From: a virus
Direction: 5' to 3' (one strand)
Length of the DNA: 39,222 nucleotides
Virus record (IMG/VR): IMGVR_UViG_3300027968_000162
Location: 1-39,222 of that record
The position numbers and the translations under genes were made by a program. This document shows positions 4,867 to 31,832 of this stretch, one piece after another. The stretch's first letter is position 1, and each line of letters begins with the position of its first letter. The notes beneath the pieces were generated by a model. The model was not told the DNA's origin. It was given only the letters and a program-made list of their open reading frames with translations, and did not search any database.

Positions 4867-5223
4867 ATGACCGACCGGCTGTCGCTGACCAACGCCTTGG
4901 CCGACGCCAACATCGACCGCAAAGCGGCCGAACGCATCGCCACCGAAATCTTCGATGCGATCCGCGAGAACGTCGCGACGAAAGCCGACCTTTCCGAGCT
5001 GCGGACCGAGCTGAAGGCCGACATTGCGGAGCTCGGGAACCGCATCGCTCTGCTGCGGACCGAGCTGAAGGGCGACATTGCGGCGCTCGGGAACCGCATC
5101 GATCTGGTCGAGCGCCGCATCGATCTGGTCGAGCATCGGCTCTTGACCCGTCTCGGCAGTCTCGTCGTCGTGCTCGCCGGCCTTCTCTTCGCCGCGCTCC
5201 ACTACTGGCCGCCGCACGGCTGA
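4867..5223 (+). CDS. DUF1640-like coiled-coil membrane protein, copy 1
   Basis: 118-residue protein on the strand opposite to all virion genes. Residues 1-40 (ANIDRKAAERIATEIFDAI, then ENVATKADLSEL) have the pattern of DUF1640/CCDC90-like coiled-coil proteins. Residues 38-85 form an amphipathic coil with a repeated unit (RTELKADIAELGNRIALL, then RTELKGDIAALGNRIDLV). Residues 96-113 (GSLVVVLAGLLFAALHYW) are one membrane helix, and the tail is WPPHG. The family function is unknown; membrane anchoring with a cytoplasmic coil is inferred. It lies between the NlpC and DUF2163 genes, convergent with one and divergent from the other, like a moron with its own expression. I see no strong promoter or Shine-Dalgarno. 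Confidence 0.75.
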   Translation: MTDRLSLTNALADANIDRKAAERIATEIFDAIRENVATKADLSELRTELKADIAELGNRIALLRTELKGDIAALGNRIDLVERRIDLVEHRLLTRLGSLVVVLAGLLFAALHYWPPHG

Positions 5224-5346
5224 TCCTCAGAACACCGTGAAGAACCCGAAGCGCCGCCTCGCAGCGCCGCGGGCGCGTTCGAGAATAGCGGCGGAACGGC
5301 CCGTCCCGCCTTGCCCCCTGCCCCGCGAACCGCTATGTGAGCGGCC

Positions 5347-5628
5347 ATGACCGACCGGCTGTCGCTGACCAACGCCTTGGCCGACGCCAACATCGACCGC
5401 AAAGCGGCCGAACGCATCGCCACCGAAATCTTCGATGCGATCCACGAGAACGTCGCGACGAAAGCCGACCTTTCCGAGCTGCGGATCGAGCTGAAGGCCG
5501 ACATTGCGGAGCTCCGGAACCGCATCGATCTGGTCGAGTATCGGCTCTTGACCCGTCTCGGCAGTCTCGTCGTCGTGCTCGCCGGCCTTCTCTTCGCCGC
5601 GCTCCACTACTGGCCGCCGCACGGCTGA
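5347..5628 (+). CDS. DUF1640-like coiled-coil membrane protein, copy 2
   Basis: 93-residue near-duplicate of the gene at 4867. The first 40 residues differ by a single change (His for Arg in the IHENVATKADL stretch) and the membrane helix and WPPHG tail are identical. The coil is shorter by 25 residues (ELRIELKADIAELRNRIDLVEYRL), equal to loss of 75 bp of internal repeat, so the frame is kept. An intact frame in a decaying tandem array suggests either recent duplication or selection. Function unknown, as for copy 1. Confidence 0.7.
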   Translation: MTDRLSLTNALADANIDRKAAERIATEIFDAIHENVATKADLSELRIELKADIAELRNRIDLVEYRLLTRLGSLVVVLAGLLFAALHYWPPHG

Positions 5629-5737
5629 TCCTCAGAACACCGTGAAGAACCCGAAGCGCCGCCTCGCAGCGCCGCGGGCGCGTTCGCGAACGGCGGCGGA
5701 ACGGCCCGTCCCGCCTTGCCCCCTGCCCCGCGAACCG

Positions 5738-5989
5738 CTATGTGAGCGGCCATGACCGACCGGCTGTCGCTGACCAGCGCCTTGGCCGACGCCAACATCG
5801 ATCGCAAAGCGGCAATATGCACGCGCGCGGACGGCCTCCCGTATCGTAGGCATGGGCCTGACCGTCCTCGTCATAGACGATCGGATCACCGTCCGCCGTA
5901 CATGCCGGCCTGACGGCGCCCCCTCCTGCGCCGGGGCGGTCTTGCAGCGGCACGCGGCCCCGGGCGGCAAGCGCCCCGCCATGCGACAC
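5738..5989 (-). CDS. small protein after DUF2163, 3' end replaced by repeat
   Basis: Possible 83-residue gene starting 2 bp past the DUF2163 stop. Residues 1-57 (for example DGDPIVYDEDGQAHAYDTGG) have an ordinary composition, but from about residue 59 the frame runs antisense through the third moron copy (CDRCWRRPRRWSATAGRSW) and is probably not native. This suggests that the recombination at 5814 replaced the original 3' end. No family is recognised. A competing Arg-rich frame from 5994 looks like a shadow. Confidence 0.35.
   Translation of the reverse strand: MSHGGALAARGRVPLQDRPGAGGGAVRPACTADGDPIVYDEDGQAHAYDTGGRPRACILPLCDRCWRRPRRWSATAGRSWPLT
5753..5814 (+). pseudogene. DUF1640-like copy 3, 5' fragment
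   Basis: The first about 20 codons of a third copy (MTDRLSLTSALADANIDRKA) with the same 5' flank as copies 1 and 2. Similarity stops near 5814, after 'aaagcggc', where unrelated sequence joins. It marks the outer edge of the triplication. Confidence 0.75.
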
Positions 5990-5990
5990 T

Positions 5991-6941
5991 TCATACGACC
6001 GCCTCCGGCGGCGGGATGTAGGGCATGCCGCCGAAGCGGGCGAGGTTGTTGAACGTGTTCTGGCAGGTCGCGGCGGTATGGTCGCAGCCCGGCAGCAGCG
6101 TGAAGCCGTCGCCGACCGCGACCGGATAGACGAACGGCGCGGTCAGGTTGACGGTGCCGCCGGCCAGGTACTGGATCGTGCGCGTGAAGCCGCTGTTGGC
6201 GCCGGAGGTTCCGATCATCGTGCCCTCGTCATAGGCGGTTGCGGGATTGGGCGAAAAGCCGGTCGCCACCGCGAGCTGCGTCGAGCCGGCGGCGGCGGTG
6301 ACGGTCACGGCGCCGATGCCGGTCGCCGCGCCGGCGGCGTTGGTGCCGGCGGTGCGGTTGTAGCCGCACATCGCGCCGCCGAACACATGCGTGCAGTTGG
6401 CGCCGTAGATGCGCCGCGGCATCTGCAGATTGGCAAGCTGCCCGAGCGGCGAATTGACCGTCATGGTGATGCCGGTGCGGCCCCAGGCGATCTGGCCGAC
6501 CAGCCCGTAGAACCACACGATGCAGCCGATCGAGGTATCGGTCGGGCCGCCGGGTCCGGGAAAGAAACGATCGAGTTCGACGACGGCGCCGTCGAACAGC
6601 CGCGCATAGATCGCCTGCTGCCAGGTCAGCGTGCCGATCAGATCCTGCGGGCCGGCGCCGATCGTCACGCTGAGCGGCTGCGCCTCGACGCCGATCTTGC
6701 ATTTGACGCGGCCGCGCTGGAACACCGGCCCGAGCGCAAAGGTCCAGGTGGCCGTCGCCGAATAGTTCAGCGAGCCGGAATTGGCGGCCCAGCAGGTGCC
6801 GGGGACGATGAGCGCCACGCTGGCGCCGGAATAGCGCAACACTTCGCCGCCGGCGAGCTGGAAGGTCCACAGATCATAGGCGGTCAACAGGCGCGAGCTG
6901 GCCAGCCAGCTAACCAGCGCGGCCGGGGCGGGGCGGACCAT
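5991..6941 (-). CDS. DUF2163 tail protein (GTA gp13-like)
   Basis: 316-residue tail-tip baseplate-like protein of the TIGR02218/DUF2163 family. Evidence: N-terminus LVSWLASSRLLTAYDLWTF with RYSGA, the mid-segment of DUF2163 (VELDRFFPGPGG), MPRRIYGANCTHVFGGAMCGYNR, and the C-terminal Cys-rich signature LLPGCDHTAATCQNTFNNLARFGG ending MPYIPPPE. The Cys-containing C-terminal motif is typical and may bind metal or an Fe-S cluster, as proposed for the GTA hub (known of the family, not shown here). It lies 4 bp after the DUF2460 gene, as in gene transfer agents, where NlpC/P60 normally follows; here the moron array separates the two. Confidence 0.9.
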   Translation of the reverse strand: MVRPAPAALVSWLASSRLLTAYDLWTFQLAGGEVLRYSGASVALIVPGTCWAANSGSLNYSATATWTFALGPVFQRGRVKCKIGVEAQPLSVTIGAGPQDLIGTLTWQQAIYARLFDGAVVELDRFFPGPGGPTDTSIGCIVWFYGLVGQIAWGRTGITMTVNSPLGQLANLQMPRRIYGANCTHVFGGAMCGYNRTAGTNAAGAATGIGAVTVTAAAGSTQLAVATGFSPNPATAYDEGTMIGTSGANSGFTRTIQYLAGGTVNLTAPFVYPVAVGDGFTLLPGCDHTAATCQNTFNNLARFGGMPYIPPPEAVV

Positions 6942-6945
6942 CTTG

Positions 6946-7569
6946 TTACTGCAGGATCGAGACGAACTTGATCTGCTTCAGCCGCCACAATTGGAACATG
7001 AAGTTCTCGAAGCTGGCGGTGTCGTCGGAAAAGCGCACGCGGAAGAAATAGCTGAAATCGGCGGTGACGGCGACGCCGGAGCCGGGCGCCGTCGTGAAGG
7101 TCAGCATGCCGGTATTGGCGTTGACCGAATAGCTCGAAGGGGATTGCACGACGCCGTTCAGATAGACGGCGCCGACCAGGTTCGGGGCGACGATCGGTTC
7201 GTTGTAGCCGCCGCCGGGCAGGGCGGGATCGAGGTTGCGCACGAGCTGGAACTGGGTTTGCGAGGCGTTGCCGGTGCCGAGCGCCTGGCCCGTGACCGCG
7301 TTGTCGGTCGGGTCGGTGTAGAGAAAGCCGGTATAGGCGCCCTGCTGCTGCGCGTGGAAGGCCATCAATGTGCGCAGTTCGTTGTAGCCGCCGGCGATGT
7401 TGTCGCGGAGGAAATCGTAGGTCAGCGTCCAGGTCCAGATCGGCAGCGCCTGATCGTTGGCGCGCCGTTCGCGCCCGGACACCGCTTTCTGGATGCGGGT
7501 TTTGAAGGTCGGCGTCTTCGTGACCGACCAGGCCAGCCCGGGCAGGTTCGGGAACTGGTTGAAGCTCAT
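6946..7569 (-). CDS. DUF2460 tail protein (GTA gp12-like)
   Basis: 207-residue distal tail protein of the TIGR02217/DUF2460 family. Signature features: the N-terminal FPNLPGLAWSVTKTPTFKTRIQ, IWTWTLTYDFLRDN, ELRTLMAFHAQQQGAYTGFLY followed by DPTDNAV, and the C-terminal VRFSDDTASFENFMFQLW. Length is normal for the family. It precedes DUF2163 by 4 bp, preserving the gp12-gp13 pair of GTA tails, and follows the tape measure gene after a 680-bp island of plus-strand genes. Confidence 0.9.
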   Translation of the reverse strand: MSFNQFPNLPGLAWSVTKTPTFKTRIQKAVSGRERRANDQALPIWTWTLTYDFLRDNIAGGYNELRTLMAFHAQQQGAYTGFLYTDPTDNAVTGQALGTGNASQTQFQLVRNLDPALPGGGYNEPIVAPNLVGAVYLNGVVQSPSSYSVNANTGMLTFTTAPGSGVAVTADFSYFFRVRFSDDTASFENFMFQLWRLKQIKFVSILQ

Positions 7570-7659
7570 GGCTTTCTGGTTGAACCGCCGCCGGCAATGT
7601 CACACATTAGCGACACGGCTGCGGCGGAGGACCGAGGCGATGTCGGCGGGGAGGCCGAG

Positions 7660-7968
7660 ATGACGATCGATACGCTCGCTTATGCAAAAGCCCTTGAAGC
7701 GGCCGGACTCGATCGCCGCGACGCGGAGGCGCAGGTCGCGGCGCTGGTGAGCTATGTCCTCCCCGACCTTGTCAGCAGGGACGATCTCCAGCAGGCGGTC
7801 GATAAGCTCGGGCATGAGCTGCGGATGACGCGCGATGATCTGAAGCTGACGATTGAAAAGGCCGTTCATCAGCAGAGCTGGCGTCTCTTTGGGATGGTCT
7901 TTGCCGTTGTCAGCCTGTTGGACGGAATCCTGTTTGCGTTGCTGCGCGTTGTGCCGCCGCCGCACTGA
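7660..7968 (+). CDS. DUF1640-like coiled-coil membrane protein, copy 4
   Basis: 102-residue plus-strand gene between the DUF2460 and tape measure genes. Residues 1-40 (YAKALEAAGLDRRDAEAQVAAL) follow the DUF1640 head pattern; residues 45-75 (DDLQQAVDKLGHELRMTRDD) are a coiled coil; the C-terminal helix FGMVFAVVSLLDGILFALL is a membrane segment ending in VVPPPH. ATG at 7660 has a good Shine-Dalgarno (GGAGG, 5 nt). It is divergent in sequence from the 5-kb copies, so it is not a recent duplicate. The next plus-strand gene starts 10 bp later, suggesting a two-gene operon. Confidence 0.75.
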   Translation: MTIDTLAYAKALEAAGLDRRDAEAQVAALVSYVLPDLVSRDDLQQAVDKLGHELRMTRDDLKLTIEKAVHQQSWRLFGMVFAVVSLLDGILFALLRVVPPPH

Positions 7969-7977
7969 GAAGGCGCG

Positions 7978-8262
7978 ATGCGCGAGATCGCTCCCGGATC
8001 GGGGCCCGGGGCAAGCCTGCTGCGGCGCAGCGGCGAAGCGCTTTATGGAGAGCGGTGGCAGGCGCCGCTCGCCCGCGATCTCGGCGTGGCGCTGCGCACG
8101 GTGCAGCGCTGGACCGCCGGGGATCATCCGATCCCGCCCGGTGTGTGGCGGGATCTCTGCGCGCTGCTGACGGCGCGCGCCGATGACATCGCCGCATTGC
8201 TGCGGGTCATTGCCGATGATCGCGGCGCCGGGCCGGGGGCGCCCCGCGCGCTACGGCCATGA
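7978..8262 (+). CDS. small HTH DNA-binding protein
   Basis: 94-residue protein with one helix-turn-helix: LARDLGVALRTVQRWTAG at about residues 31-48, then IPPGVWRDLCALL, the pattern of small plasmid and phage XRE-like regulators (GEALYGERWQ before the HTH). It is co-oriented with the coiled-coil gene 10 bp upstream and its 3' end overlaps the tape measure gene by 12 bp tail to tail. It could regulate the moron pair or phage genes; no target is visible. Start ATG at 7978. Confidence 0.7.
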   Translation: MREIAPGSGPGASLLRRSGEALYGERWQAPLARDLGVALRTVQRWTAGDHPIPPGVWRDLCALLTARADDIAALLRVIADDRGAGPGAPRALRP

Positions 8263-9165
8263 CAGCGCGCCGGCGTTCCAGGCCTCGCCGACCGCGGCGG
8301 CAAGCGCGCCGCGGTTCTGCGCAAACCAGCGGCCGATCGAGGCGCCGTCGGCGGGCCCGTGAAAGCCGAGATGGACGTGCACCTCGCCCGTGCCGCCGCC
8401 GCGGATCAGGCCCTGCAGGCCCTGCGCGATGTCGGCCGGCAGCACCATTTCGCGCGAATGCAACAGCGCCGGCATGGCGCCGGCGAAGGCCGGCAGCGCC
8501 CAGCCGCCGGCGGCCGTCGGCACGATGCCGCCCTGCGCGAACAGGCTTGTAAAGAACGAGCCGATGCCCTTGAAGATCGAGCCGAAAAAGCCGCCGCCGA
8601 GGATGCCGCCGCCGAGGCTGCCAAGGGGGCCGGTGACGGCGCTGGTGCCGGTCGCCGCCGCGGTCGCCCCGGCCGCCGCGGCGGTGGCGCCGGTGTTGGC
8701 GGCGATGATCGAAAGCAGCGAGATCTTGGTCGTCTCCCGCGGGTTGCCGAGCAGCAGATTGGCAAGGCCGCCCACAATGCCGCCCTGGCCGATCAGGCCG
8801 GTGAACAGCGGCTTGACCAGCGTGTCGCCGAGCCCCTTGACGAGGTTCGACATCATGCCGCCGACCACCGATTTCTCGAGGCCGAGCATGATTTCGCGCA
8901 GGCCGCCCGAAGTGCGGATGCCGAGCACGGCGTTGGTCAGGGCGTCCGAGAGACCGCGCGCGATCGGTGCCGAGAAGCGATGCCAGGCTGATTCGCTGCG
9001 GCGCTGCGCCCAGGCGGCGCCGATCGCCTTGCCGAGCTCGCGGAAGCCCGAAATCAGATCGTCGACCGGCGCGCGGATCGAGGCGATCTGCGCCTTCACT
9101 TGCGCGACGCCGGCGCTCAGATCGCCGACCGAGGCGCCGAAGCGGAGCTGGACGTCATCGGGCAT
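8251..9165 (-). CDS. short tail tape measure protein
   Basis: 304 residues. The N-terminus (VQLRFGASVGDLSAGVAQVK) is a tape-measure head; residues 85-150 are hydrophobic and glycine-rich; and the C-terminal stretch FAQGGIVPTAAGGWALP plus PALLHSREMVLP is the usual tape-measure end in GTA-type tails. Tape measure length sets tail length, and this is far below a typical siphophage (800 or more residues), similar in class to the RcGTA protein (about 220). A very short tail is inferred. It overlaps the upstream chaperone gene by 11 bp. Confidence 0.8.
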   Translation of the reverse strand: MPDDVQLRFGASVGDLSAGVAQVKAQIASIRAPVDDLISGFRELGKAIGAAWAQRRSESAWHRFSAPIARGLSDALTNAVLGIRTSGGLREIMLGLEKSVVGGMMSNLVKGLGDTLVKPLFTGLIGQGGIVGGLANLLLGNPRETTKISLLSIIAANTGATAAAAGATAAATGTSAVTGPLGSLGGGILGGGFFGSIFKGIGSFFTSLFAQGGIVPTAAGGWALPAFAGAMPALLHSREMVLPADIAQGLQGLIRGGGTGEVHVHLGFHGPADGASIGRWFAQNRGALAAAVGEAWNAGALSWP

Positions 9166-9460
9166 GGCGCGCCTTCAGGGTCTCGAAATCGAGGATCGGC
9201 GCCGGCAGCCCTTCATGCACGTCGCGCCGGCGGCTGAAGCCGGGCATGCCGGCCAGATCGGCGATCGTTGGCGCCGGCGGGGTCTCTACGCGACCCGCCG
9301 CCGGTCCCTGCCAGCCCCATAGCCGCGCCAGCACCTGCAGCATGTGATGCGCCGGCGGCGCCTCGCGCCAGGCCGCGAAGATCAGCTCGGCCTCGGCCAT
9401 CGTCATCGCGTCGATCACGGGGATTGGGTATCCGCAGCCGGTGGCGAGCTCGCCGTACAA
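9155..9460 (-). CDS. tail assembly chaperone, distal frame
   Basis: About 101 residues in the -1 frame relative to the upstream chaperone. Sequence YGELATGCGYPIPVIDAMTM, then AEAELIFAAW, fits the second tail chaperone of siphophages (the 'T' part). No good ATG covers the conserved start: TTG at 9460 lies 8 nt after GGGGAG, and ATG at 9406 would cut into the conserved part. It overlaps the end of the first chaperone by 46 bp, so expression is by translational coupling or a -1 frameshift. Overlaps the tape measure start by 11 bp. Confidence 0.6.
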   Translation of the reverse strand: MYGELATGCGYPIPVIDAMTMAEAELIFAAWREAPPAHHMLQVLARLWGWQGPAAGRVETPPAPTIADLAGMPGFSRRRDVHEGLPAPILDFETLKARHAR

Positions 9461-9789
9461 TCGGCACACTCCCCGCTCGATCTCGCCGCCGGCTGCGCTT
9501 CCCCCGCCGGCTTCAACCCGGAGCCGGTCAGGATCGCCTGCACGACCTCGCGGGCGTTGCCGAGATCGACCAGCTCCGCGACCTGTTGCGGCGTCACGCC
9601 GGGATAGTTGCGCGACAGCGCGGCGGCGACCAGGTCGACGATGACGTCGATCTCGACCTCGCCCATCTCGGCGCCGAAATCCTTGAGCTGCGCGATCCGC
9701 GGCAACAGCCGGCGCATCTGCCCCAGCGTCAAGGGCGGCACGATCCATTCGCGCCCGCCCATGCGCAGTGCGACGCCGTCGATCATCAT
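9415..9789 (-). CDS. tail assembly chaperone, proximal frame
   Basis: 124-residue protein between the major tail protein and tape measure, where chaperones that coat the tape measure are encoded. WIVPPLTLGQMRRLLPRIAQL, then VDLVAAALSRNYPGVTPQQV, is typical of this chaperone family. The last about 25 residues (ARSSGECADCTASSPPAADT) are low complexity and overlap the next gene in the -1 frame. The ATG at 9789 overlaps the major tail protein stop. Confidence 0.7.
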   Translation of the reverse strand: MMIDGVALRMGGREWIVPPLTLGQMRRLLPRIAQLKDFGAEMGEVEIDVIVDLVAAALSRNYPGVTPQQVAELVDLGNAREVVQAILTGSGLKPAGEAQPAARSSGECADCTASSPPAADTQSP

Positions 9790-10559
9790 TCGACCGTCGA
9801 CAGATAGCCGAGCGTGCCCGCGGCGTCGGCGAAGGCCTGGAAGTCGAACTCGAAGATGGTCCAGTCGTCGAGCCGGGTCGGCACCGTGAACTTGCTGGCG
9901 GTGCAGGCGTTGAGCCGTAGCGCCAGCGGCGCGTTTTCGGCCGAGCCGCCGATGCCGTAGGGGCTGATCGGCTGGTAGAACGTCGCCTTGAAGGTCGGCG
10001 TCGTGCCGAGCAACTGGTTGGTCAGCGTGATCTTGGAGCCGCTTGTCGTCAGATTGTAGGTGTAGGAAATCAAGAGCGCGGCGCCGGCGTCGGCGGCGCT
10101 GAACGTATACACCCCGGTCGAGAAGTTGACCGAATACTGCCCGGCCGCCGAGGGTGTCGTGACGCGGTTGAAGGCCTTGCCGGTGGCGGCGTAATAGACG
10201 CCGAGATCGTCGTTGTAGGACGCGGCGTTGGCGACGGTGACCGTGTAGGGCGTCGTCGCCGGCACGTTCTGCGCCTCGTTCTGGGCCACCGCGAACTGGC
10301 CGGTGGCGGCGCCGATCCCCCAGAATAGATCGGCGTAGAGCAGCCCCAGGATGCGCGCGAACTTGGCCTTTCCGGTTACCTTGCACTGGCCGCGCGCGAT
10401 CGCCTGCGGGAACTGGTACTGGCCGTAAAGCTCCTTGGTGGTCCAGTCGAAATCGATCTGGATATCCTGCAACACGCCGAACTGGCGCGGGCCGATGCCC
10501 GAGCCGGTCGCATCGAGGCGCTCGCCCCACAAGGCGCCGGAGCCGAACGAAAGCTGCAT
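9786..10559 (-). CDS. major tail protein
   Basis: 257-residue tail tube protein. It begins MQLSFGSGALWGERLDATG with GPRQFGVLQDIQIDFDWTTKELYG, and the C-terminal DWTIFEFDFQAFADAAGTLGYLS fits phage tail tube proteins that end before the chaperone. A central segment (SYNDDLGVYYAATGKAFNRV) looks like an added beta domain. Position after the tail terminator and before the chaperones is standard; ATG 10559 and the TGA/ATG overlap at 9786-9789 support the limits. Immediately upstream lies a small phage gene broken by a repeat element, which may affect transcription into this gene. Confidence 0.85.
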   Translation of the reverse strand: MQLSFGSGALWGERLDATGSGIGPRQFGVLQDIQIDFDWTTKELYGQYQFPQAIARGQCKVTGKAKFARILGLLYADLFWGIGAATGQFAVAQNEAQNVPATTPYTVTVANAASYNDDLGVYYAATGKAFNRVTTPSAAGQYSVNFSTGVYTFSAADAGAALLISYTYNLTTSGSKITLTNQLLGTTPTFKATFYQPISPYGIGGSAENAPLALRLNACTASKFTVPTRLDDWTIFEFDFQAFADAAGTLGYLSTVE

Positions 10560-10615
10560 GTCAGCCGCTCCTCCTCAACAGCGCTTTCAGCGCCTCCTTG
10601 GCGCCCAGCGCGTAA

Positions 10616-10769
10616 TACCAAACTCTGATCAGAACCCATAAAAACAGCCGTCATTGCGAGCGCAGCGAAGCAATCCCGCGCCGGGTGCAATATGCCGCCG
10701 AGATTGCTTCCTCGCTTCGCTCTTCGCGATGACAAGGGGAGTATAGGTTCTCATCATTGGGATCTGGTA
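10616..10769. repeat. MITE-like palindromic element, left copy
   Basis: 154 bp, ends tacc/ggta, flanked on both sides by TAA (10613-10615, 10770-10772). The interior holds inverted arms: gtcattgcgagcgcagcgaa against ttcgctcttcgcgatgac, around 'gagattgcttc'. This class of palindrome is dispersed in many proteobacterial genomes (family knowledge). It is similar to the copy at 11808 in the same orientation. Confidence 0.75.
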
Positions 10770-10790
10770 TAAGGCATCAGAAAAACATTT

Positions 10791-11804
10791 TGCGCGCCGC
10801 AGGCGCGCTATGGCGTTCTCTCATCGTTTTCCTCCTCACTGATCTCACTGCCTCCCTGTGAATTGATATAACAATGAGCCAGTGAGGACAGTGAGGATAA
10901 GGGAAGGAAGAAAAAGATGATGCGCGCCACGGGCGCGCTATGGCGTTCTCTCATCGTTTTCCTCCTCACTGATCTCACTGCCTCCCTGTGAATTGATATA
11001 ACACTGAGCCAGTGAGGACAGTGAGGATAAGGGAAGGAGGAAAAAGATGATGCGCGCCACGGGCGCGCTATGGCGTTCTCTCATCGTTTTCCTCCTCACT
11101 GATCTCACTGTCTCCCTGTGAATTGATATAACACTGAGCCAGTGAGGACAGTGAGGATAAGGGAAGGAAGAAAAAGATGATGCGCGCCACAGGCGCGCTA
11201 TGGCGTTCTCTCATCGTTTTCCTCCTCACTGATCTCACTGTCTCCCTGTGAAATAATAGAACAGGGAGCCGGTGAGGACAGTGAGGATAAGGGAAGGAGG
11301 AAAAGATGATGCGCGCCGCGGGCGCGCTATAACGTTCTCTCATCGTTTTCCTCCTCACTGATCTCACTGTCTCCCTGTGAAATAATAGAACAGGGAGCCG
11401 GTGAGGACAGTGAGGATAAGGGAAGGAGGAAAAGATGATGCGCGCCGCAGGCGCGTTATGGCGTTCTCTCATCGTTTTCCTCCTCACTGATCTCACTGCC
11501 TCCCTGTGAAATAATAGAACAGGGAGCCGGTGAGGACAGTGAGGATAAGGGAAGGAAGAAAAAGATGATGCGCGCCGCAGGCGCGCTATGGCGTTCTCTC
11601 ATCGTTTTCCTCCTCACTGATCTCACTGCCTCCCTGTGAAATATAGAACAGGGAGCCGGTGAGGACAGTGAGGATAAGGGAAGGAGGAAAAGATGATGCG
11701 CGCCGCAGGCGCGCTATGGAGTTCTCTCATCGTTTTCCTCCTCACTGGTCTCACTGTCTCCCTGTGAATTGATATAACAATGAGCCAGTGAGGACAGTGA
11801 GGAT
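10791..11804. repeat. eight tandem palindromic units of 128-130 bp
   Basis: The phrase gttctctcatcgttttcctc recurs near 10814, 10944, 11074, 11204, 11333, 11462, 11592 and 11720. Each unit holds a short GC hairpin (gcgcgccgcaggcgcgc) and a long imperfect inverted repeat: catcgttttcctcctcactg against gtgaggataagggaaggagg and aaaagatg. Two subtypes alternate in the order AAABBBBA; type B (units 4-7) adds a perfect inner stem ctccctgt/acagggag, while type A has gaattgatataac in its place. Confidence 0.9.
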
Positions 11805-11807
11805 TAA

Positions 11808-11969
11808 TGCCAACTCTCTCTGATCAGAGCCCATAGAAAGAAACAGTTGTCATTGCGAGCGCAGCGAAGCACTCTCGCGCCGGGTACGGTATGCCGCCGA
11901 GATTGCTTCGTCGCTTTGCTCCTCGCAATGACAGGGGGGAATACGGGTTCTCGTCATCGGGATCCGGTA
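11808..11969. repeat. MITE-like palindromic element, right copy
   Basis: 162 bp, starts tgcc and ends ggta, flanked by TAA at 11805-11807 and 11970-11972. Inverted arms: gtcattgcgagcgcagcgaa against ttgctcctcgcaatgac. Direct repeat of the left copy with scattered substitutions, so the two are not a very recent duplication. Confidence 0.75.
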
Positions 11970-12111
11970 TAATTCCGGCATTCGGTGCAGCGGGCCACGA
12001 CCGAGCCCGGGAAATGGTCGGCCCACCAGCGCTCGATCAGCGCCTCGAGCGGATGCGGCGACGCCTCGGCGCCGCCGGCGGGGCCGTCACATCATCGACC
12101 ATGGATGTCTC

Positions 12112-12555
12112 CTATTGCGCGACGCACAGGATCTCGACCGGCACGATCGCGATCGCCTGGTCGCCGAGCACGCCCTCGTCGGTCTCGACGCGCCCGGCGA
12201 TGTAGGCGTGCTGCACCATGTTCGGCAGGCCGAGGTTCTGGATGCCGGTTGCCGGCGCCGGCGCCAGCGCGGCCTCGAGCGCATCGAGCAGCGGGTTGAG
12301 GATCATCGCCGGCGCCGCATACGGGTCGCCCGAATGGGCGTAGATGAAGAAATCGGCGTAGAGCGTCCACACCACCGGCGCCCCGAGCGCCTTGACGACG
12401 GCGTGGCCGCCCTTCTCGCTCATGAACAGCGCCGGCTGTTCGGCCGGGGAGACGTCGGACCAGTGCCGCAGCCGCCGCGAGGCGGTCGCGAACTGCGCCG
12501 CCCCCGCCGCCAGCGCCCACAGCGCCGCATAGATCGGCTCGCGCGCGATCGTCAT
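12112..12555 (-). CDS. tail terminator / tail completion protein
   Basis: 147-residue protein in the tail terminator position, after the HK97 gp10-like connector and before the major tail protein. Sequence cues: REPIYAALWALAAGAAQF at the N-terminus; FMSEKGGHAVVKALGAPVVW; AMILNPLLDALEAALAP; and NLGLPNMVQHAYIAGRVETD, then AIAIVPVEILC as the closing strand, all usual for this family. ATG at 12555 overlaps the upstream stop (12552) by 4 bp. It joins the tail tube to the head connector. Confidence 0.75.
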   Translation of the reverse strand: MTIAREPIYAALWALAAGAAQFATASRRLRHWSDVSPAEQPALFMSEKGGHAVVKALGAPVVWTLYADFFIYAHSGDPYAAPAMILNPLLDALEAALAPAPATGIQNLGLPNMVQHAYIAGRVETDEGVLGDQAIAIVPVEILCVAQ

Positions 12556-20644: not shown

Positions 20645-20657
20645 CAAGGCGCCTTCG

Positions 20658-20987
20658 TCACTGCGGCATCCGACATGGCAGGACGGTCCACAAGACGACG
20701 ACCTCGCCGTCCGACATCGTGCCGGTCACGGTGACCAGATAGTCGTTGCCGGCGACCAGCCCGGCGATCGTCTGCCGGGTCACGGTGCCGCTGATCGCAG
20801 CCGCGCCGACAAGGCGCGCCTGCGGGGTCGCATCGGCGGCGGCGCCGGGCAGCGTGTAATGCAGTCCGAGCGCCCAGACCGTCGACACCAGGCTCGCCCC
20901 GACCGGCACATTCTGCGCAAAGTCGATCGCATAGAGCCCGACCGCGCCCGGTTCGGTGACCGGAAAGTCTTTCAACAATCGCGGCAT
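20658..20987 (-). CDS. small Ig-like phage structural protein
   Basis: 109-residue beta-rich protein: LKDFPVTEPGAVGLYAIDFA at the start, the strand VSTVWALGLHYTLPGAAADA, RLVGAAAISGTVTRQTIAGL, then GNDYLVTVTGTMSDGEVVVLW. The pattern is that of small Ig-like tail/fibre accessory proteins in alphaproteobacterial phages. It lies 13 bp upstream of the portal gene start and 3 bp after the Ala-rich gene. Exact role unknown. Confidence 0.6.
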   Translation of the reverse strand: MPRLLKDFPVTEPGAVGLYAIDFAQNVPVGASLVSTVWALGLHYTLPGAAADATPQARLVGAAAISGTVTRQTIAGLVAGNDYLVTVTGTMSDGEVVVLWTVLPCRMPQ

Positions 20988-20990
20988 CGA

Positions 20991-21764
20991 TCAGCCCTGT
21001 TGCGGCCCCTTGTCGGTGGCGGTGATCGTCAGGCCCGGATTGACCGCGGTCAGCGTCAGCACGTTCTTCATGCCGGGCGGGATCTGCTGCGCGGCGGCGA
21101 TGATCTCGAGCGTCGGGTTGGTGACCGCCGCCGGCGGCGGCGTCACCAGCGCCAGCACCGCGCGCCCGCAGGCAAGCGCCAGCGCCCGCGCCGCGACCGC
21201 GAGCTGCGCCCCGGCCGTCAGCGCCGCCGCCGCGCGCGCCGCCATCGCCCCGCGCGCGGCCAGCGCCGCGACAAAGCCGCCGCCGGCGCGGGCGCCGCTG
21301 CGGGCCGCCGCGGTCGCCGCGAGCTCGGCGGCAAAGACCGCGCCGGCGCGGCCCATGGCCGCCCCGGCGCTGCGCGCAAGCAGCGCGACGACGCCGAAAT
21401 TGATGCTGCCCTGCCCGCGCCCGAAGCCCGCCCCCCGCGCCGCCAGCGCCGCCGTCGCCGCCGCCGCCGCCCGCCCCATGGCCGCCGCCGCTCCCCGCGC
21501 GATCAGCATCGCCGCAAAGGCGACGCCGCCGCGCCCGCCCGCGGCCGCCCCGGCCCGCGCCGTCAAAGGCGCCGTAAAGACCAACGCCGGCCGCGCCACC
21601 CCCTGCGCCGTCCCGCGCGCGGCGATCGCCGCCCCGTAGGCGCCGCCGCCCCGGCCCGCCGCCGCCGCCCCGGCGCGCGCCGACAAGGAAAGCGGCGTCG
21701 GCCCGCCGGCGACCGGCGCAGCCGAGACTGGCAGTTCGCTGACGGCGCCGCCCGAGACCAGCAT
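20991..21764 (-). CDS. Ala/Gly-rich repeat protein
   Basis: 257 residues, about half Ala and Gly. Seven or so degenerate repeats of roughly 24 residues follow the pattern ARGAAAAMGRAAAAATAALA; the C-terminal 45 residues (TNPTLEIIAAAQQIPPGMKNVLTL) are ordinary and beta-like. Such repeat proteins occur in the fibre clusters of related prophages, where they are thought to form shafts or spacers; function unproven. The high repeat content makes copy number change likely. Confidence 0.55.
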   Translation of the reverse strand: MLVSGGAVSELPVSAAPVAGGPTPLSLSARAGAAAAGRGGGAYGAAIAARGTAQGVARPALVFTAPLTARAGAAAGGRGGVAFAAMLIARGAAAAMGRAAAAATAALAARGAGFGRGQGSINFGVVALLARSAGAAMGRAGAVFAAELAATAAARSGARAGGGFVAALAARGAMAARAAAALTAGAQLAVAARALALACGRAVLALVTPPPAAVTNPTLEIIAAAQQIPPGMKNVLTLTAVNPGLTITATDKGPQQG

Positions 21765-21783
21765 CGATCAGCCTTCGCCGCGC

Positions 21784-22680
21784 TCAACTTGTCCCCTGCG
21801 CCCATGCCGCCAGTGTCACCAATGCCGGCGCCGTCTGCCATGGCGAGACGCCGAAAAACACGGTGTTGTAATTGGCCAGCCCGCCTGGCGCCGAGGCCAC
21901 CGTCGCCGAATAGAGGGTCAGGAAATTGACCCCATCCATCGAATAGAGGCACGACAGGTTGGTGCCGTCATTCTTGATCTTCATCCACATGTGGTAGGGC
22001 GCGGGGCCGGTGAGATTGGCCAGCGAAGTCGTGTAGCTGGTCGCGGTGGCCCATGCCATGACCCACATCCCGGCGCCCGGGATCAGGTTCAGCGTCACCG
22101 CTCTCGTGCCGTCATACCAGCCGAGCGCGACGTTGTTGTAATTGGCGCCGGTGCCGGCATAGAGCGCGAGCGCGGTCAAGCTGTAGGGCGTGGCCGGCGC
22201 CGCTTTCGACAGCGCGTTGAGGACGCCGCCGGCGGTGGTTTGCGAGGTAATCGCGACGCCGGCGGCGGTGTCGGCGGCGGTTGCGGTCGATTGGTTGATC
22301 CAGGTGGTCAGCCCGGTGCCGGCCTGCGTCGGCGGCGGCGCCGTGATCAGCCCCTGATAGAGGCCGCCATGCTGGATGCGGCGCGCCGAGGCGGTGCAAA
22401 AGACCGTGCTGGTGCCGGTGAGATTGATCGCGGCGCCGCCGTTGCTGCTGGCGTAGATCACCGTGCGCGACAGCGTGTTGTTCGCGCCGGTCGTCACGGT
22501 GCCGTTGCCGACTTCCCAATCCGTGCCGTTGCCGGACAGGATGCAGTAGTCGCAGGTGTTGCCGTTGCCGATCGCCGCGGCGAAGGACTGGAACTGCGGT
22601 GCGGCGCCGGCCAAGGTGATCGTGCCGGTGCCGGTCGTCGTCGTCGTTTCCTTGACGCGATCGGCGATGATCTGGGCCAT
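21784..22680 (-). CDS. tail fibre-like protein
   Basis: 298 residues. The N-terminal module IIADRVKETTTTTGTGTITL with SFAAAIGNGNTCDYCIL and LSRTVIYASSNGGAAINLTG is a common head of phage fibre/structural proteins. Residues about 125-298 (NVALGWYDGTRAVTLNLIPG; HMWMKIKNDGTNLSCLYSMD; FLTLYSATVASAPGGL) look like a concanavalin-like lectin fold and may bind glycans. Part of the fibre cluster. Confidence 0.6.
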   Translation of the reverse strand: MAQIIADRVKETTTTTGTGTITLAGAAPQFQSFAAAIGNGNTCDYCILSGNGTDWEVGNGTVTTGANNTLSRTVIYASSNGGAAINLTGTSTVFCTASARRIQHGGLYQGLITAPPPTQAGTGLTTWINQSTATAADTAAGVAITSQTTAGGVLNALSKAAPATPYSLTALALYAGTGANYNNVALGWYDGTRAVTLNLIPGAGMWVMAWATATSYTTSLANLTGPAPYHMWMKIKNDGTNLSCLYSMDGVNFLTLYSATVASAPGGLANYNTVFFGVSPWQTAPALVTLAAWAQGTS

Positions 22681-22713
22681 CGGAAGACCGGAGAACCGGG
22701 ATCGGCGCGAGCG

Positions 22714-22953
22714 TCAGTGCGGTTTCTGCGGCCACGCCGCAAAGCAGCGATCGAGCGCCGCAACGGCGGCGTTCGCCTGCCGCACCGTCCCGCCGGCCGC
22801 GATATATTGGTCCCATACGGCCGCCCGATAGTCCTGATAGGACACGCCGGGTATGGCGCCATAGAACCACAGCATCGCGGCAATCGCCGCTTTCGGGCTT
22901 GGCGGCACCCAGGGCGCGCATTTGCCGAACAGAATGGCCAGGCCTTTAAGCAT
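22714..22953 (-). CDS. small hypothetical protein of the fibre cluster
   Basis: 79 residues with KAAIAAMLWFYGAIPGVSYQ then DYRAAVWDQYIAAGGTVRQA; mostly helical, with two Cys and no membrane helix. Not a family I recognise. It lies between two fibre-like genes, in the same orientation, and could be a fibre chaperone, which is only a guess. Confidence 0.45.
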   Translation of the reverse strand: MLKGLAILFGKCAPWVPPSPKAAIAAMLWFYGAIPGVSYQDYRAAVWDQYIAAGGTVRQANAAVAALDRCFAAWPQKPH

Positions 22954-22979
22954 GACGCCTGCTCACAATGTCTGCCTGC

Positions 22980-23672
22980 TCATACCGCCGACAGGATCAG
23001 CGTGCCGGCGGCAAAGGAAGGCTGCACGCCCGAAGGCACCGATTGCTGCACGATCTTGCGTACCATGCCGTTGCCGGTCGCGGTCGTGTTGACCGCGGTG
23101 CCGGCCGTCGTCAGCGTGAAGGTGTCGGTGGTCGGGCTGACGACGAGCGAAACGTTGTTCGCGCCGAGCGCGCCCGAGCCGCTGGCCAGCGTCGGCGCGG
23201 TGCCGCCGAACACGGTCGAGAAGACGATCGGGTCGTTGGCGGCAAAGCCGTGCGCGTGCGCGGTGAAGACGGCGGGCGAGGCCGAGGAGATCGTGCACGG
23301 CTGCCATTGAAAGTTGCCGAGCCAGTCCCAGGCGAGCAGGTTGCCGGCGGTTGCCGCATCATAAAGGCCGAAGGCGACGACGGTGCCCCAGGAAGCGGTC
23401 GCGGTCGCGAACGTGATCGCGGCGGCGCCGGAGCCGTTATTGGCGATCGTCGTCGGATCGGTGCCGGTCGAGGCGGCGCCCCAGGTGCCGGTGGTGCCAG
23501 TGGCGGTGGCGACGCGGGCGTAGCCGCCGCCCGAGACCTCGACCGCGCCGGCGCCGGTGTCGTCGGTCGGCGCCGTCGTGAATAGCGCGACATAGGCGGT
23601 CGGCGCCGCGAAGATCGCGGAATAGCCGGTGATGTGCTGCAGGATGCCCTCGGCGGTGCGCCGTGCGAACAT
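22980..23672 (-). CDS. beta-rich phage structural (fibre) protein
   Basis: 230 residues. The start (RRTAEGILQHITGYSAIFAA, then VALFTTAPTDDTGAGAVEVS) is a recurrent phage fibre/structural module, followed by AAITFATATASWGTVVAFGLYD with a Thr/Ala-rich beta C-terminus (DPIVFSTVFGGTAPTLASG). Same strand as its neighbours. The 73-bp gap upstream holds the palindrome gcggccgcaacgcggccgc. Confidence 0.6.
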   Translation of the reverse strand: MFARRTAEGILQHITGYSAIFAAPTAYVALFTTAPTDDTGAGAVEVSGGGYARVATATGTTGTWGAASTGTDPTTIANNGSGAAAITFATATASWGTVVAFGLYDAATAGNLLAWDWLGNFQWQPCTISSASPAVFTAHAHGFAANDPIVFSTVFGGTAPTLASGSGALGANNVSLVVSPTTDTFTLTTAGTAVNTTATGNGMVRKIVQQSVPSGVQPSFAAGTLILSAV

Positions 23673-23745
23673 ATGTACCCTCCCGCGGCCGCAACGCGGC
23701 CGCGCCGCAACCCGGGATCGAAACGGGGTCGGACCGGCGCCGGGG

Positions 23746-26700
23746 CTACTGCGTCGCCCCGATCGGCCCGATCGCCCATTTCGGACCGTTGGTGAAGGAC
23801 AGCGGCGGATTGTATTTGCCCAGATACTGCCGGCGCCGGATTTCGTTGTAGATGTTGACGGCGTTGGCGAGCGCCGGGCTGCCGTTCAGATTGTACAGGA
23901 CCGAGGCCATGCCGAGCCCGCTCGTCACCATGCAGATGTAGGAATCCGCGGTGTTGTATTCGGCGCCGCCGTCGAGGCAGATCATGTCGTTGAGGCCGGC
24001 CTGGCTGATCAGCGTCGCAATGCCCGGCCACGGCCGCGGCATCGAGCCGACCGTCACGACCGTGCCGAAGCGGATCGTGTCGCCGGCCGCGACCGAGCCG
24101 CCATTCTGGATGCCGATCGGGCGGCTCAAGGTCACGGTCGTCGTGCCGCCGCTGGAGGTGATCGCGGTCACGAAATACGGCAGGTAGGGGTTGCCGCCGC
24201 CGATCGGGATCGCATTGGGATTGGTGACGTCCTGCACCCCCATGCCGACAACGACGCCGGACGGGAAGCTGGACGACGAGAAGGTCAGCGTCGTCGAACC
24301 GTTGGCGGAAGCGGCGCTGGTCGTGGCCGTATAGACGCCGCGCGTCGCCGCCGCCTGCGCGTTGCCGCTCGTGCCCGGCGCGGGGCCGGTCGTGAGCTGG
24401 TTGCCGGATTGCGCCGTGACGATCGTGTATTCCGGGAAGTCGTTGAAATTCCAGGTCTGTACGAACCAGCCCGGAGAAACTCCGATGTTGTAGAGATGGG
24501 CGATCCCGTTGACCAGCGTGATCGTCGTGCCGCCCTGCGTGATGCTGCACAGATCGGTATAACCTGTCGATGGGGTGCTGTACCCGTCCAAGCTCAGCGC
24601 CTGATTCCACGACGATACGTAGTTGCCCTGTGGATCGGCTCCCACAATTTGATAGAGGTTCATGCCGAAGATGCAGCCTTGCGGCGAGCCGCCCCAGGCC
24701 TCATTGCCGAAGCCTACGACAATCCGGCTCAGATAGTTGGTGACGAAATTGACGAGCTGCGGATACTCGCCCTTCCACGCCTCCATCGCCCAGCACAGGA
24801 ACATTATATAGTGCATGAAGGGGAACCAGGTCGTATAACCTCCGTTCCCTTCCCAGGAATAGAGCGATCCATATACGCCGAGTGCGCCGATCGAACTCGG
24901 GATGTACTGCACGAGCTGGTTCGGGATCGACGCGATGCCATAGGTCTGGTCGCGCAGATATTGCGCCTCCGGCCGGTTTGCCGGCATGAAATGCATCATC
25001 ACGCCGTGGATGCGCATCAGCCAGCCGATGCCGCGGACCTGGGCGCCATCGCCGATATTCCAGAGAGGCTGGGCGTACCAACTGCTGTTGGCCGTCCCCC
25101 CCTGGCCGCTATTCATGACCGACCAGGATTTGTAACTGGTAACACCGCCGGCATCAACTTCGCCGAAGTAACTCGACATCATGCGCAGATTGCATTGTAT
25201 CGCCAGCAGTTCGTAATACAGGAAATCGCCGCTGTGCAGATAGGGCAGCATCGCCGGGCACGGGTTGTGGGCGCCGCCATTGTCGATCCAGGCGGGGTTG
25301 TCGATCGTCGCGTTCGACCACATGGTCCAGCCGGAATAACCGTTGTAGCCCCAGCGCGCCTGCGGTCCGACCGGAATGCCGTAATTCGGGTAGTAGGTCA
25401 CGTTGACCACCGGCAATGTGGCGGTGTACTCGTTGATCGCGATCATCGAATATTCGAAGTACGACAGGGCGACGCCGACGTTCAGCCGGTGCAGGTTGAG
25501 GTCGAACGGCCGGTATAGCGCGCAGGCGCTGTGCCAGGTCAAATAACCGATGCGGTCGTCCTGTTCGCTCTCGCCGGTGCCGCCGATATTCGACGGAAAA
25601 TAGAGGGCGCCCTGGCTGAACGGCAAAAGCGCCGGCGGGCTGACGGTCGAATCGACGGTCAGGTTCGCCAGATAGGGCGGCAGGAAGCGCGATCTTGTCG
25701 TCAGATAGGTGAAGTCGTGCGCGACCAGCAGGGTCGGCTTTGTCGCTCCGCTTGTCCCGGCATACCAGACCCGCCCGCCGTCCTGATCGAGCGCCAGCGT
25801 CGGCACCCACGGGTAGGCGGCCGACAATGGCGTGATCGACAATGTTCCCGAGCCCTGGCTCGTGATCGCGATGATGTTCGTCGCCTGTTCGGCGTCGAGC
25901 CGGGTCGGGCAGAAGCTGATGGCGGGCGGGTTTGTCGATGTGATCCAGTACGGCGTGCCGGCGGAAAGGCCGCCCGGCATCGTTCCGGACGAGGACAGGA
26001 CGACCGGGACACCCATCGCGGGATGGTTCTCGTACTGGAAATAGCCGACCCCGAGCAGCGCCTGCGCCTGCGCCGCCGTCAGCGCCACCGTGTTGTTCGC
26101 CGTGTTGATCGCGGTCTGCGCGACCGTCGTAGCGCGGAAATCGCCGGGGCCGCCCCAATTCGCCAGCACCGTGGTGCCGTTCTGCAGGCGCGCCGTAAAC
26201 GCGTATTTGCTGATCTTCGTCGCCGACGCGCCGACGCTGCCGCCGAGATTGGGGCCGAACGCGTTGAAGATGCCCCAGTAGCCGCCGATCTCGAACGGCC
26301 CGTTGGCGCCCCAGGCGCGCACGAAAATGACGCCGCGCAGCCAATAATGGAAGGCGCCGTCGGAAACGCGCTTGAACACCGACCAGAAGCGCCATTCGGT
26401 GCAAACGGGGCCGCTGCGGATGACTTCCCATCCCTGCAACGGCGGATTGAGGAAGCCGATGTTGATGTTGCTCGCGCTCGCATAGGCCTGCTGGCTCATC
26501 GTCACGCTCGTGCCGGAGACCGCGGTCACATAGGTGTTCGGCGCAAGGCCCTGCGACGCCAGAATGACCTGGCCGACCTGGATGCCGTTCGCCGAGGCCA
26601 CGGTCAGCGTCGTGCTGCCGTTCGTGATCGTGCCGGTGGTCGTGACCTGCGGCGCCGTCCACGGCCACGCAGTGCCGTGCGCGACGATGTCGTTGACGCT

Positions 26701-28488
26701 GACCTCGAAGGTGTCGGTGCCGAGATCGTAGCCGGTGAACAGGAACTTGATGTCGGTGTTGGCGGTCAGTTGCGCCAATGTCACGTTGGCGGTGCGCGAC
26801 GGTGAGCCGGAGACCGACCAGATCTGATAGGTGAAGAGCTGCCCGACCGTGCCCGCCGTGCCCGCGGCCGGCGCCGTCAGGCCGGTGGCGACCGTGTAGG
26901 TGACCGAGGATCCCGACACGGTGATCGTCTGCACGCCGTCGAAGGGGTCGGGCAGCCCGGAGATGACGGCGGTGCCGGACACCAGATGGTTGGTGGACGG
27001 ATTGGCGACTGTCAGCGTGACGAGACCGGTCGAGGAATTGTAGGACGAGAAGGTAAAGGTGTCGGCGCCGAACGTGTCCGGGATCGCGGCCGAGATCGCG
27101 ACCGTTTTCCAGCTGCCGTCCTGCAGCCAGGTCGATTCCTGGTCCTGCTGCGTCGAGACGACGGTGGTGCCGTCGCTCTTGCGCAGTTGCACCATGCTCG
27201 TCGACGGAATCGCCCCCGGCGGGAACGGCGTCGCAAAGGTGTAAAGCGGCGCCGCCACCGGCGTCGCGCCGGTGTTGGCGATGCGCACGGTGGTGATCTG
27301 CGTGCCGCTGCCGGCCGCCGGCATCGTGACTGTCGCCGTGGACGATGGCGGCGAGGTGCCGGCGGCGTTGACCGCCTCGAGGTAATAGGCCCAGCTCGAC
27401 CCCGCCGTCAGGACGCTGCTGGAGTCGGTGTAGGAAGTCCCGGCGACCGTTGCGAGCAATGTCGCCGCGGTGGATCCGGCCTGCTCGCGATATACATTGT
27501 AACCGGTGACCTGTTGGCTGGCCGGGTTGGCGGTCCACGACAGCGACACGGTGTCGTTGCTGTTCGCGGTCGCGGCCAGCCCGCTCGGGGCGGTCGGCAT
27601 CGACAGGGGCTGCGGGATCGTCACGCCGACCGAGGCGGAGGGCGGCGAGATGCCGGCGGCGTTGACCGCGACGACGAAGTAATACCACTGCGTGTTCGGC
27701 AGCAACTCGCCGGAAGCGTCGGTATAGGAGGTCGTCGCGACCGCCGCGACCGATTTCGGCATGAACCAGATGGCCGGCGTGCGATAGATCCGGTATTCGA
27801 TGACCGCATCGGAAGCGGCGTTGGCGGTCCACGACAGCGATACGGTGTCGTTGCTGTTCGCGGTGGCGGCCAGCCCGCTCGGGGCGGCCGGCGGCAGCAG
27901 GATCTGGCCCTTCGGGATCGTCACGCTGACCGGCGCCGAGGGCGGCGAGGCGCCGGTCGCGTTGACCGCCTCGACGTAATAAGTCCATTGCGACCCCGGC
28001 GTCAGGGCGCCGTCGGCGTCGGTGTAGGACGTGCCGGAGACGGTGGCGAGCGGCGTCGCCGAGGAGGAACCGTAGGGCTCGCGATACACGGTATAGGCGC
28101 TGACCTGTTGACCGGCCGGGTTGGCGGTCCACGACAGCGACACGGTGTCGTTGGCGTTCGCCGTCGCGGTCAGCCCGGTCGGGGCGCTGGGCAGCGGCAG
28201 CGGGATCGTCACGCTGACCGTTGCGGAGGGCGGCGAGGTCCCGGCCGCGTTGACCGCCTTGAGGTAATAGGTCCAGCGCGACCCCGGCGTCAACGCGCTG
28301 GCGGCGTCGGTATAGGACGTGCCGGAGACGGTGGCGATCAAGATCGCCGCGGCGGAACCGTAAGCCTCGCGATAGACGTTGTAGGCGGTGACTTTCTGAT
28401 TGGCCGGGTTGGCGCTCCACGACAGCGACACGGTGTCGTTGGCGTTCGCGGTCGCGGTCAGCCCGGTCGGGGCGGTCGGAAGAGACAT
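23746..28488 (-). CDS. giant FN3-repeat protein with enzymatic-looking C-terminus
   Basis: 1580 residues. Residues 1-385 are four fibronectin type III domains of about 95 residues (pattern APTGLTATANANDTVSLSW ... YTDA ... AVNAAGTSPPSA). Residues 400-700 are beta-rich. From about 900 on, helical, aromatic-rich segments (MLPYLHSGDFLYYELLAIQC; MRIHGVMMHFMPANRPEAQY; MHYIMFLCWAMEAWKGEYPQ) recall alpha/alpha-toroid polysaccharide lyases or glycosidases. I infer a tail-bound depolymerase or adhesin; no catalytic residue can be named. The DNA from about 24440 to 25230 is AT-richer than its surroundings. ATG 28488 is chosen because FN3-1 begins at once. Confidence 0.6.
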   Translation of the reverse strand: MSLPTAPTGLTATANANDTVSLSWSANPANQKVTAYNVYREAYGSAAAILIATVSGTSYTDAASALTPGSRWTYYLKAVNAAGTSPPSATVSVTIPLPLPSAPTGLTATANANDTVSLSWTANPAGQQVSAYTVYREPYGSSSATPLATVSGTSYTDADGALTPGSQWTYYVEAVNATGASPPSAPVSVTIPKGQILLPPAAPSGLAATANSNDTVSLSWTANAASDAVIEYRIYRTPAIWFMPKSVAAVATTSYTDASGELLPNTQWYYFVVAVNAAGISPPSASVGVTIPQPLSMPTAPSGLAATANSNDTVSLSWTANPASQQVTGYNVYREQAGSTAATLLATVAGTSYTDSSSVLTAGSSWAYYLEAVNAAGTSPPSSTATVTMPAAGSGTQITTVRIANTGATPVAAPLYTFATPFPPGAIPSTSMVQLRKSDGTTVVSTQQDQESTWLQDGSWKTVAISAAIPDTFGADTFTFSSYNSSTGLVTLTVANPSTNHLVSGTAVISGLPDPFDGVQTITVSGSSVTYTVATGLTAPAAGTAGTVGQLFTYQIWSVSGSPSRTANVTLAQLTANTDIKFLFTGYDLGTDTFEVSVNDIVAHGTAWPWTAPQVTTTGTITNGSTTLTVASANGIQVGQVILASQGLAPNTYVTAVSGTSVTMSQQAYASASNINIGFLNPPLQGWEVIRSGPVCTEWRFWSVFKRVSDGAFHYWLRGVIFVRAWGANGPFEIGGYWGIFNAFGPNLGGSVGASATKISKYAFTARLQNGTTVLANWGGPGDFRATTVAQTAINTANNTVALTAAQAQALLGVGYFQYENHPAMGVPVVLSSSGTMPGGLSAGTPYWITSTNPPAISFCPTRLDAEQATNIIAITSQGSGTLSITPLSAAYPWVPTLALDQDGGRVWYAGTSGATKPTLLVAHDFTYLTTRSRFLPPYLANLTVDSTVSPPALLPFSQGALYFPSNIGGTGESEQDDRIGYLTWHSACALYRPFDLNLHRLNVGVALSYFEYSMIAINEYTATLPVVNVTYYPNYGIPVGPQARWGYNGYSGWTMWSNATIDNPAWIDNGGAHNPCPAMLPYLHSGDFLYYELLAIQCNLRMMSSYFGEVDAGGVTSYKSWSVMNSGQGGTANSSWYAQPLWNIGDGAQVRGIGWLMRIHGVMMHFMPANRPEAQYLRDQTYGIASIPNQLVQYIPSSIGALGVYGSLYSWEGNGGYTTWFPFMHYIMFLCWAMEAWKGEYPQLVNFVTNYLSRIVVGFGNEAWGGSPQGCIFGMNLYQIVGADPQGNYVSSWNQALSLDGYSTPSTGYTDLCSITQGGTTITLVNGIAHLYNIGVSPGWFVQTWNFNDFPEYTIVTAQSGNQLTTGPAPGTSGNAQAAATRGVYTATTSAASANGSTTLTFSSSSFPSGVVVGMGVQDVTNPNAIPIGGGNPYLPYFVTAITSSGGTTTVTLSRPIGIQNGGSVAAGDTIRFGTVVTVGSMPRPWPGIATLISQAGLNDMICLDGGAEYNTADSYICMVTSGLGMASVLYNLNGSPALANAVNIYNEIRRRQYLGKYNPPLSFTNGPKWAIGPIGATQ

Positions 28489-28806
28489 GTTCTGTGAGCT
28501 CCGATGCGGCAGACGCATCCCGGAGGGCGCGTCTTCCTTCGGCCGCGGGAGCCCGCCGGACGAACGATTCCCCGGCGGGCCGCGCCCGCTTTGCCGATCG
28601 ACGCGTCACCCGCAGCCGGGAATGGTCTCACCTTCGAATATCGAAAAATCCTAAGAAGAAAGGGGAAGCGGTCGCGGCCGGATCGCGCCGGTCGTCGCTA
28701 TCCGTGTCGCGCTGGTGCGGGCGCAAGGTTCGCGCTTCGCCGCGCCGCCGCCGCGGCCCGCGACGCGGCGGCGGCAGATGCCGTGGCAGTCCCGGAAAGG
28801 TCCGGA
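28489..28806. other. 318-bp intergenic region with hairpins
   Basis: No gene seen. It holds the hairpin gcccgccgg/ccggcgggc at 28551-28580, a small hairpin gatgcg/cgcatc near 28503-28519, and a GC palindrome ccgccgccgcgg/cgcggcggcgg near 28745-28774. An AT-rich stretch at about 28640-28665 could hold a promoter, but I find no convincing -35/-10 pair. Confidence 0.5.
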
Positions 28807-29715: not shown

Positions 29716-29754
29716 GATCAAGACTCCTGTCAAGGTGATGGGTCGGGAAAAGGG

Positions 29755-30105: not shown

Positions 30106-30120
30106 CGCAGTGTCCGGGGT

Positions 30121-30193
30121 CAAAAAGCCCCGATGCGCAAGGTTCCGAAGCGAGCGCAGGGCGCCTCGGGCGCCCTTGCGGTGCGCATCGGGG
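30121..30193 (-). terminator. intrinsic terminator after the lysis genes
   Basis: On the minus strand a perfect 12-bp stem CCCCGATGCGCA/TGCGCATCGGGG encloses an inner stem AGGGCGCC/GGCGCCCT and is followed by CTTTTTG. It lies between the holin-like gene and the lipoprotein gene and would stop or attenuate late transcription there. Confidence 0.7.
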
Positions 30194-30208
30194 GCGGGTT
30201 GAGAGGTT

Positions 30209-31795: not shown

Positions 31796-31832
31796 GCTTG
31801 CCTCCTTTGACAGGCCCGGGCCGCCGCCCGGA

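Follow-up and report, generated by a model that had tools for sequence, protein, structure and literature searches.

A small gene of the phage studied here is interrupted by a gene-free element of 1354 bp (positions 10616 to 11969), which starts with TACC, ends with GGTA, and has eight units of 128-130 bp enclosed by two modules, of 154 bp on the left and 162 bp on the right. The window, that is, the whole stretch of DNA analysed, is the IMG/VR virus record IMGVR_UViG_3300027968_000162, with a length of 39,222 bp, from a soil sample. The evidence is strong that the ancestral gene was intact and that the element entered it by an insertion, with exact ends and a duplicated TAA. The reading that we favour, with a probability of roughly two in three (0.68), is that a non-autonomous composite of IS630-type MITEs moved as a whole, mobilised in trans, into a TAA of the phage gene.

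Both ends of the element are formed by MITE modules. The left module (10616-10769, plus strand, 154 bp) runs from TACC to GGTA, and the right module (11808-11969, plus strand, 162 bp) runs from TGCC to GGTA. They lie in direct orientation and are about 90% alike; the outer ends are intact TACC and GGTA, and one inner end has decayed to TGCC. Each module consists of a CGTC-type REP head-to-head dimer (10650-10733 in the left and 11849-11932 in the right module, both on the plus strand) set between inverted ends, which pair over 25-28 bp in the left module (shuffle p 0.001) and more weakly in the right one (shuffle p 0.22). The modules have the properties of MITEs: they are short, carry terminal inverted repeats, lack a transposase gene, and share their ends with an autonomous element, the IS630-family IS described below. 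The module cores show the CGTC/TGTC tag, the ATTGC.. stem and the head-to-head pairing of CGTC-REP dimers, and the 26-base core of the REP palindrome occurs in more than 40 other viral loci. Among 46 other dimers surveyed, TAAT[A/G]CC was found to the left of none and GGTA to the right of one. Since these other dimers lack this pair of ends, the TACC...GGTA frame is an additional layer on the modules. REP-like palindromes of the same type, without TACC/GGTA ends, also occur between genes in two related phages (L092 and L093, from G016 and G033). Two further viral contigs (L123, 3052-3440, and L136, 4415-4803) carry three tandem CGTC-REP dimers at a spacing of 156-157 bp, which alternate with another palindromic repeat (CATCCTTCGAGG...).

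The stretch between the modules (10770-11807, plus strand), with TAA on both sides, is an array whose units, exactly eight in number, measure 128-130 bp each. Tandem repeat detection gave 7.9 copies of 130 bp with 95% matches and a score of 1709. In the fold of each unit, two hairpins lie side by side (z-score -6.1); no compensatory pair changes were found among the units, so that a function of the array is without covariation support. The two modules join the array at one and the same unit position, the TAA in GGATAAGGG (GGA-TAA-GGG), which leaves eight whole units, with one extra T at the right boundary. Each unit contains about two TAA, and two TAA-directed insertions would therefore easily give eight whole units. 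Several other readings of the array were rejected. A coding array was suggested by an SD-like AGGAGG and an ATG in each unit on the minus strand, but the units vary by 1-2 nt and the frames close between units; the longest ORF of the array matched nothing in plasmids by tblastn. For a known RNA, there was no Rfam match at gathering scores, and the low-score microRNA matches are those of generic hairpins. A CRISPR-like arrangement was dismissed because there are no unique spacers and the repeats run throughout.

The minus-strand genes of the window include those for portal, capsid/protease, connector and baseplate proteins, and an S24/HTH regulator gene lies at its right end; given the structural genes together with this regulator, the phage is most likely temperate. 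The interrupted gene is flanked downstream by a member of phrog_8234 (9786-10559, minus strand) and upstream by a member of phrog_8150 (12112-12555, minus strand). The initial annotation had named them major tail protein and tail terminator, respectively, and these names turned out to be guesses from position, as both proteins match only PHROGs of unknown function. Naming the downstream protein by structure was abandoned because the model was too poor (mean pLDDT 30.8), and a PDB search with this protein returned no relative.

A search with the downstream protein yielded 80 viral loci, one of which (L002) is the window's own sequence, leaving 79. In 77 of these, tblastn matched the RWWADHFPGS piece of the small gene at the same place, and the gene is uninterrupted in the 76 loci that carry the full motif. 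The spacing from FPGS to AK[E/Q] is exactly 14 residues in every one of the 76. The joined sequence of the window, VVARCTECRNYALG, has the same FPGS-AKE spacing of 14 residues only after removal of 1357 bp, which is the element plus one TAA; the spacing is wrong if no TAA is kept, if both are kept, or if TA is taken as the duplication. By inspection, the gene is closest to that in L036, which runs through the join of the window without a gap in the alignment. The proposal that joining the two parts with a single TAA restores the reading frame is thus borne out by the spacing in the relatives, and the uninterrupted gene that was to be looked for among them is present in 76 of the 79 loci.

The N-terminal part of the interrupted gene lies at 11970-12102 and the C-terminal part, which encodes YALGAKEALKALLRRSG up to its stop, at 10561-10615, both on the minus strand and each including one copy of TAA/TTA. 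The gene also carries a separate frame lesion upstream of RWWADHFPGS, as claimed earlier, and this lesion is real in the window sequence: the ATG at 12102 opens a short frame that reaches a stop after about 20 codons, and RWWADHFPGS lies in another frame, whereas the small gene of the relatives is open throughout. This break is read in one assembly only, and a sequencing error is possible there. In addition, the Trp of the WN motif, which is invariant in all 77 relatives scored, is replaced by Arg in the window, beside the insertion. The frame break and the Trp-to-Arg change are what a pseudogene would show.

These features bear on the idea that the insertion is old and beneficial, the array regulating the structural operon of the phage, for example as a terminator or an attenuator. 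Such a role would suit strong hairpins (-6.1 per unit) placed between structural genes. However, the array is absent from all relatives scored, the units show no compensatory pair changes, and the insertion disrupts a conserved gene in which the reading frame and an invariant Trp have also been lost. We consider regulation of this kind very improbable; the array may instead be cargo without a function of its own.

Directly outside TACC and GGTA, the TAA target duplication is present at 10613-10615 and 11970-11972, which confirms the ends, the duplication and the coordinates that the initial annotation had given. A T follows on both sides of the site, so that the window site alone would also allow a duplication of TAAT; we take it to be 3 bp because the relatives of the element, the IS copies described below, show 3 bp. 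The duplication usual for IS630-type elements, TA, was rejected: with it the joined site would exceed the proper length by 5 bp and fall out of frame, and the empty site of the IS fits TNA exactly instead.

A second viral contig, L082 (IMGVR_UViG_3300005524_000128), is 100% identical to the window over 5567-11868 and includes the left junction and the whole array. It stops inside the right REP, and the right outer junction is seen in the window assembly alone. As the REP is widespread, the array and the right MITE could in principle have been misjoined to the phage contig at this palindrome. What lies to the right of the junction, however, is precisely the portion that the gene lacks, and when the two sides are joined with one TAA, the length agrees with that in all relatives. 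Because the right flank restores the same gene and the same gene order, we regard a chimeric assembly as highly unlikely.

The origin of the module ends was traced with a 34-base consensus, which was searched against plasmids and gave four alphaproteobacterial records with matching ends. A fifth match, in Hoeflea, lies in a helicase gene and is probably due to chance. In one of the four, from Sphingobium sp. V4, the match is to the end of an IS630-family element annotated as such. When the four module ends were compared with the 5' end of this IS (L147), 0 of 3000 shuffles was as good for each end, and both inverted ends of each module resemble the same single terminus of the IS. Relatives of the full IS are present in 303 plasmid records, mostly plasmids of Rhizobium, Sinorhizobium, Agrobacterium, Azospirillum, Bradyrhizobium and Sphingobium. 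The two ORFs of the IS contain matches to HTH and DDE_3 domains; the transposase halves score 157 bits with NF033545 (cut-off 100) and 95 bits with PF13358, as expected for the IS630 family.

In S. meliloti plasmid records (L161-L184, among which AK21 pSymA carries 1158-bp copies), all 15 IS copies scored measure 1158 bp from TACC to GGTA, and all 15 are flanked by exact 3-bp TNA repeats (TAA in 8, TTA in 5 and TGA in 2). Joined by a single TAA, the flanks of one copy match three other S. meliloti plasmids or strains at 400 of 400 positions without a gap. Copies in other genera mostly agree with a TNA duplication, and L157 and L148 do not. The parent IS thus duplicates 3 bp, TNA, and not the TA dinucleotide of the IS630 family, whereas a TA target has been reported for the IS630-type ISY100 (PMC2170065). 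TACC/GGTA ends with a TNA duplication are thus the true footprint of the parent IS, one that is also present on the window element. The expectation that element boundaries elsewhere would match was borne out in this form: related elements share the TACC/GGTA ends with TNA duplications, TAA being the commonest. A further MITE of the same IS family was seen in Roseomonas marmotae plasmid p1318-1 (L149, 2498-2620). It is 100 bp long and reads TAA-TACC...GGTA-TTA; both its ends resemble the same one IS terminus, as in the window modules, and it directly abuts a second TACC end, a tandem insertion at a TNA site.

From these observations a route can be proposed. Two MITEs derived from an alphaproteobacterial IS630-family IS would have inserted at TAA sites of the array, eight units apart. 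An IS630-family transposase acting in trans would then have used the outermost ends, the TACC of the left MITE and the GGTA of the right MITE, and transferred the whole 1354-bp stretch to a TAA in the small phage gene, with duplication of the TAA. Judging by the shared ends, the enzyme of the matching IS probably moved the element. The initial annotation read the scars as direct evidence of a composite moving as one unit. Use of the outermost ends by transposition holds up, and the word direct is too strong, because insertion of a single MITE followed by recombination would produce identical scars, and the searches described below revealed no further copy. Movement of the composite as one unit is therefore said here to be likely.

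The two-step route would start from a single MITE at the phage TAA, into which a circle of one MITE and eight units was later integrated by homologous recombination, the circle having arisen when a larger MITE-array locus of the host recombined. The MITEs are direct and about 90% alike, as integration of a circle would leave them, the outer scars would be identical, and the same route has been proposed for MITESen1-bounded composites in plasmids (PMC13367494). However, this history requires two events as well as recombination over about 98 bp at 88% identity, and no single-MITE locus was found among the relatives. We judge it unlikely, though the most serious of the alternatives. The intact outer ends, together with the decayed inner TGCC, lean slightly towards the one-step move of the composite, in which the two MITEs would have acted jointly in a single event.

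The searches for further copies covered viral, genome and plasmid collections, which may omit records near the window. In 2.9 million viral contigs, neither the composite nor the array was found a second time with exact patterns: those taken from the array and the module ends hit only L082, besides a 19-base match to the array, taken as chance, in L088, where the sequence is unrelated and no array is present. One exact 21-base core revealed no second copy in 84,980 genomes; its lone match, in Streptomyces, was taken as chance, and the whole element did not match that genome. The array was likewise absent from the phages and from the 72,556 plasmids searched, and weak plasmid matches in Methylorubrum and Acidiphilium (E of about 2-5) are located within or at the edge of annotated genes.

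Composites bounded by MITEs and MITEs that hold minisatellites are already known. TIME-COMPs are bounded by two Tn3-derived MITEs and include integron mobilization units (PMC13367494). The window element resembles them in having foreign DNA between two MITE copies, no transposase inside, and the target duplication outside the outermost ends; by analogy, mobilisation in trans would be expected. It differs in that its MITEs are of IS630 type with a 3-bp duplication, rather than of the Tn3 family with 5-6 bp, its cargo is a non-coding satellite rather than a resistance gene, and its target is a phage gene. The BrickBuilt MITE of Porphyromonas gingivalis (PMC4596501) likewise holds a tandem array between MITE-like ends without a transposase, but that array is a minisatellite of 23-nt repeats between a single IS5-type leader and tail, whereas the window has 130-nt double-hairpin units between two complete MITEs. 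Each module core is a head-to-head dimer of the type of the CGTC-tagged alphaproteobacterial REP dimers, which have also been found seated inside longer palindromes (PMC3733652); in the window, by contrast, the palindrome around the dimer can be recognised as an IS-derived MITE that has a target duplication of its own. The TACC...GGTA ends, the terminal sequence and the TNA duplication are shared with the IS630-family plasmid IS, which encodes a two-part transposase, whereas the window element encodes none.

New in the present case are the IS630-derived bounding MITEs, the hairpin satellite cargo, the phage gene as target, and the TNA duplication in an IS630-family element, which exposes a widespread subgroup of the family with a 3-bp TNA rather than a TA duplication. 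MITE-bounded composites are usually overlooked because they contain no transposase. Here the phage relatives supply the intact site, which makes this a clear example of DNA without genes carried between two MITEs, and one for which a likely enzyme family can be given. It suggests that the role of Tn3-derived MITEs can also be taken by IS630-derived ones, and that tandem arrays, too, can travel in this manner. It is doubtful that IS630-MITE composites regularly carry the 130-bp hairpin satellite from replicon to replicon; if they did, MITEs would be vehicles for bacterial satellite arrays that are picked up by prophages.

Elsewhere in the window, a recent direct duplication with 97-98% identity (5115-5408 against 5520-5813, and 4900-5052 against 5380-5532) falls in a coiled-coil-like coding region. 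At 32411-36862, a single ORF of 1483 aa corresponds to two genes that are separate in the relatives, of about 467 and 850 aa, and it aligns twice to part of the second, suggesting a fusion with internal duplication. The portal gene and the upstream gene are separated by about 12 kb with fibronectin-III repeat genes (20650-32400), compared with 0.1-2.9 kb in the two relatives checked.
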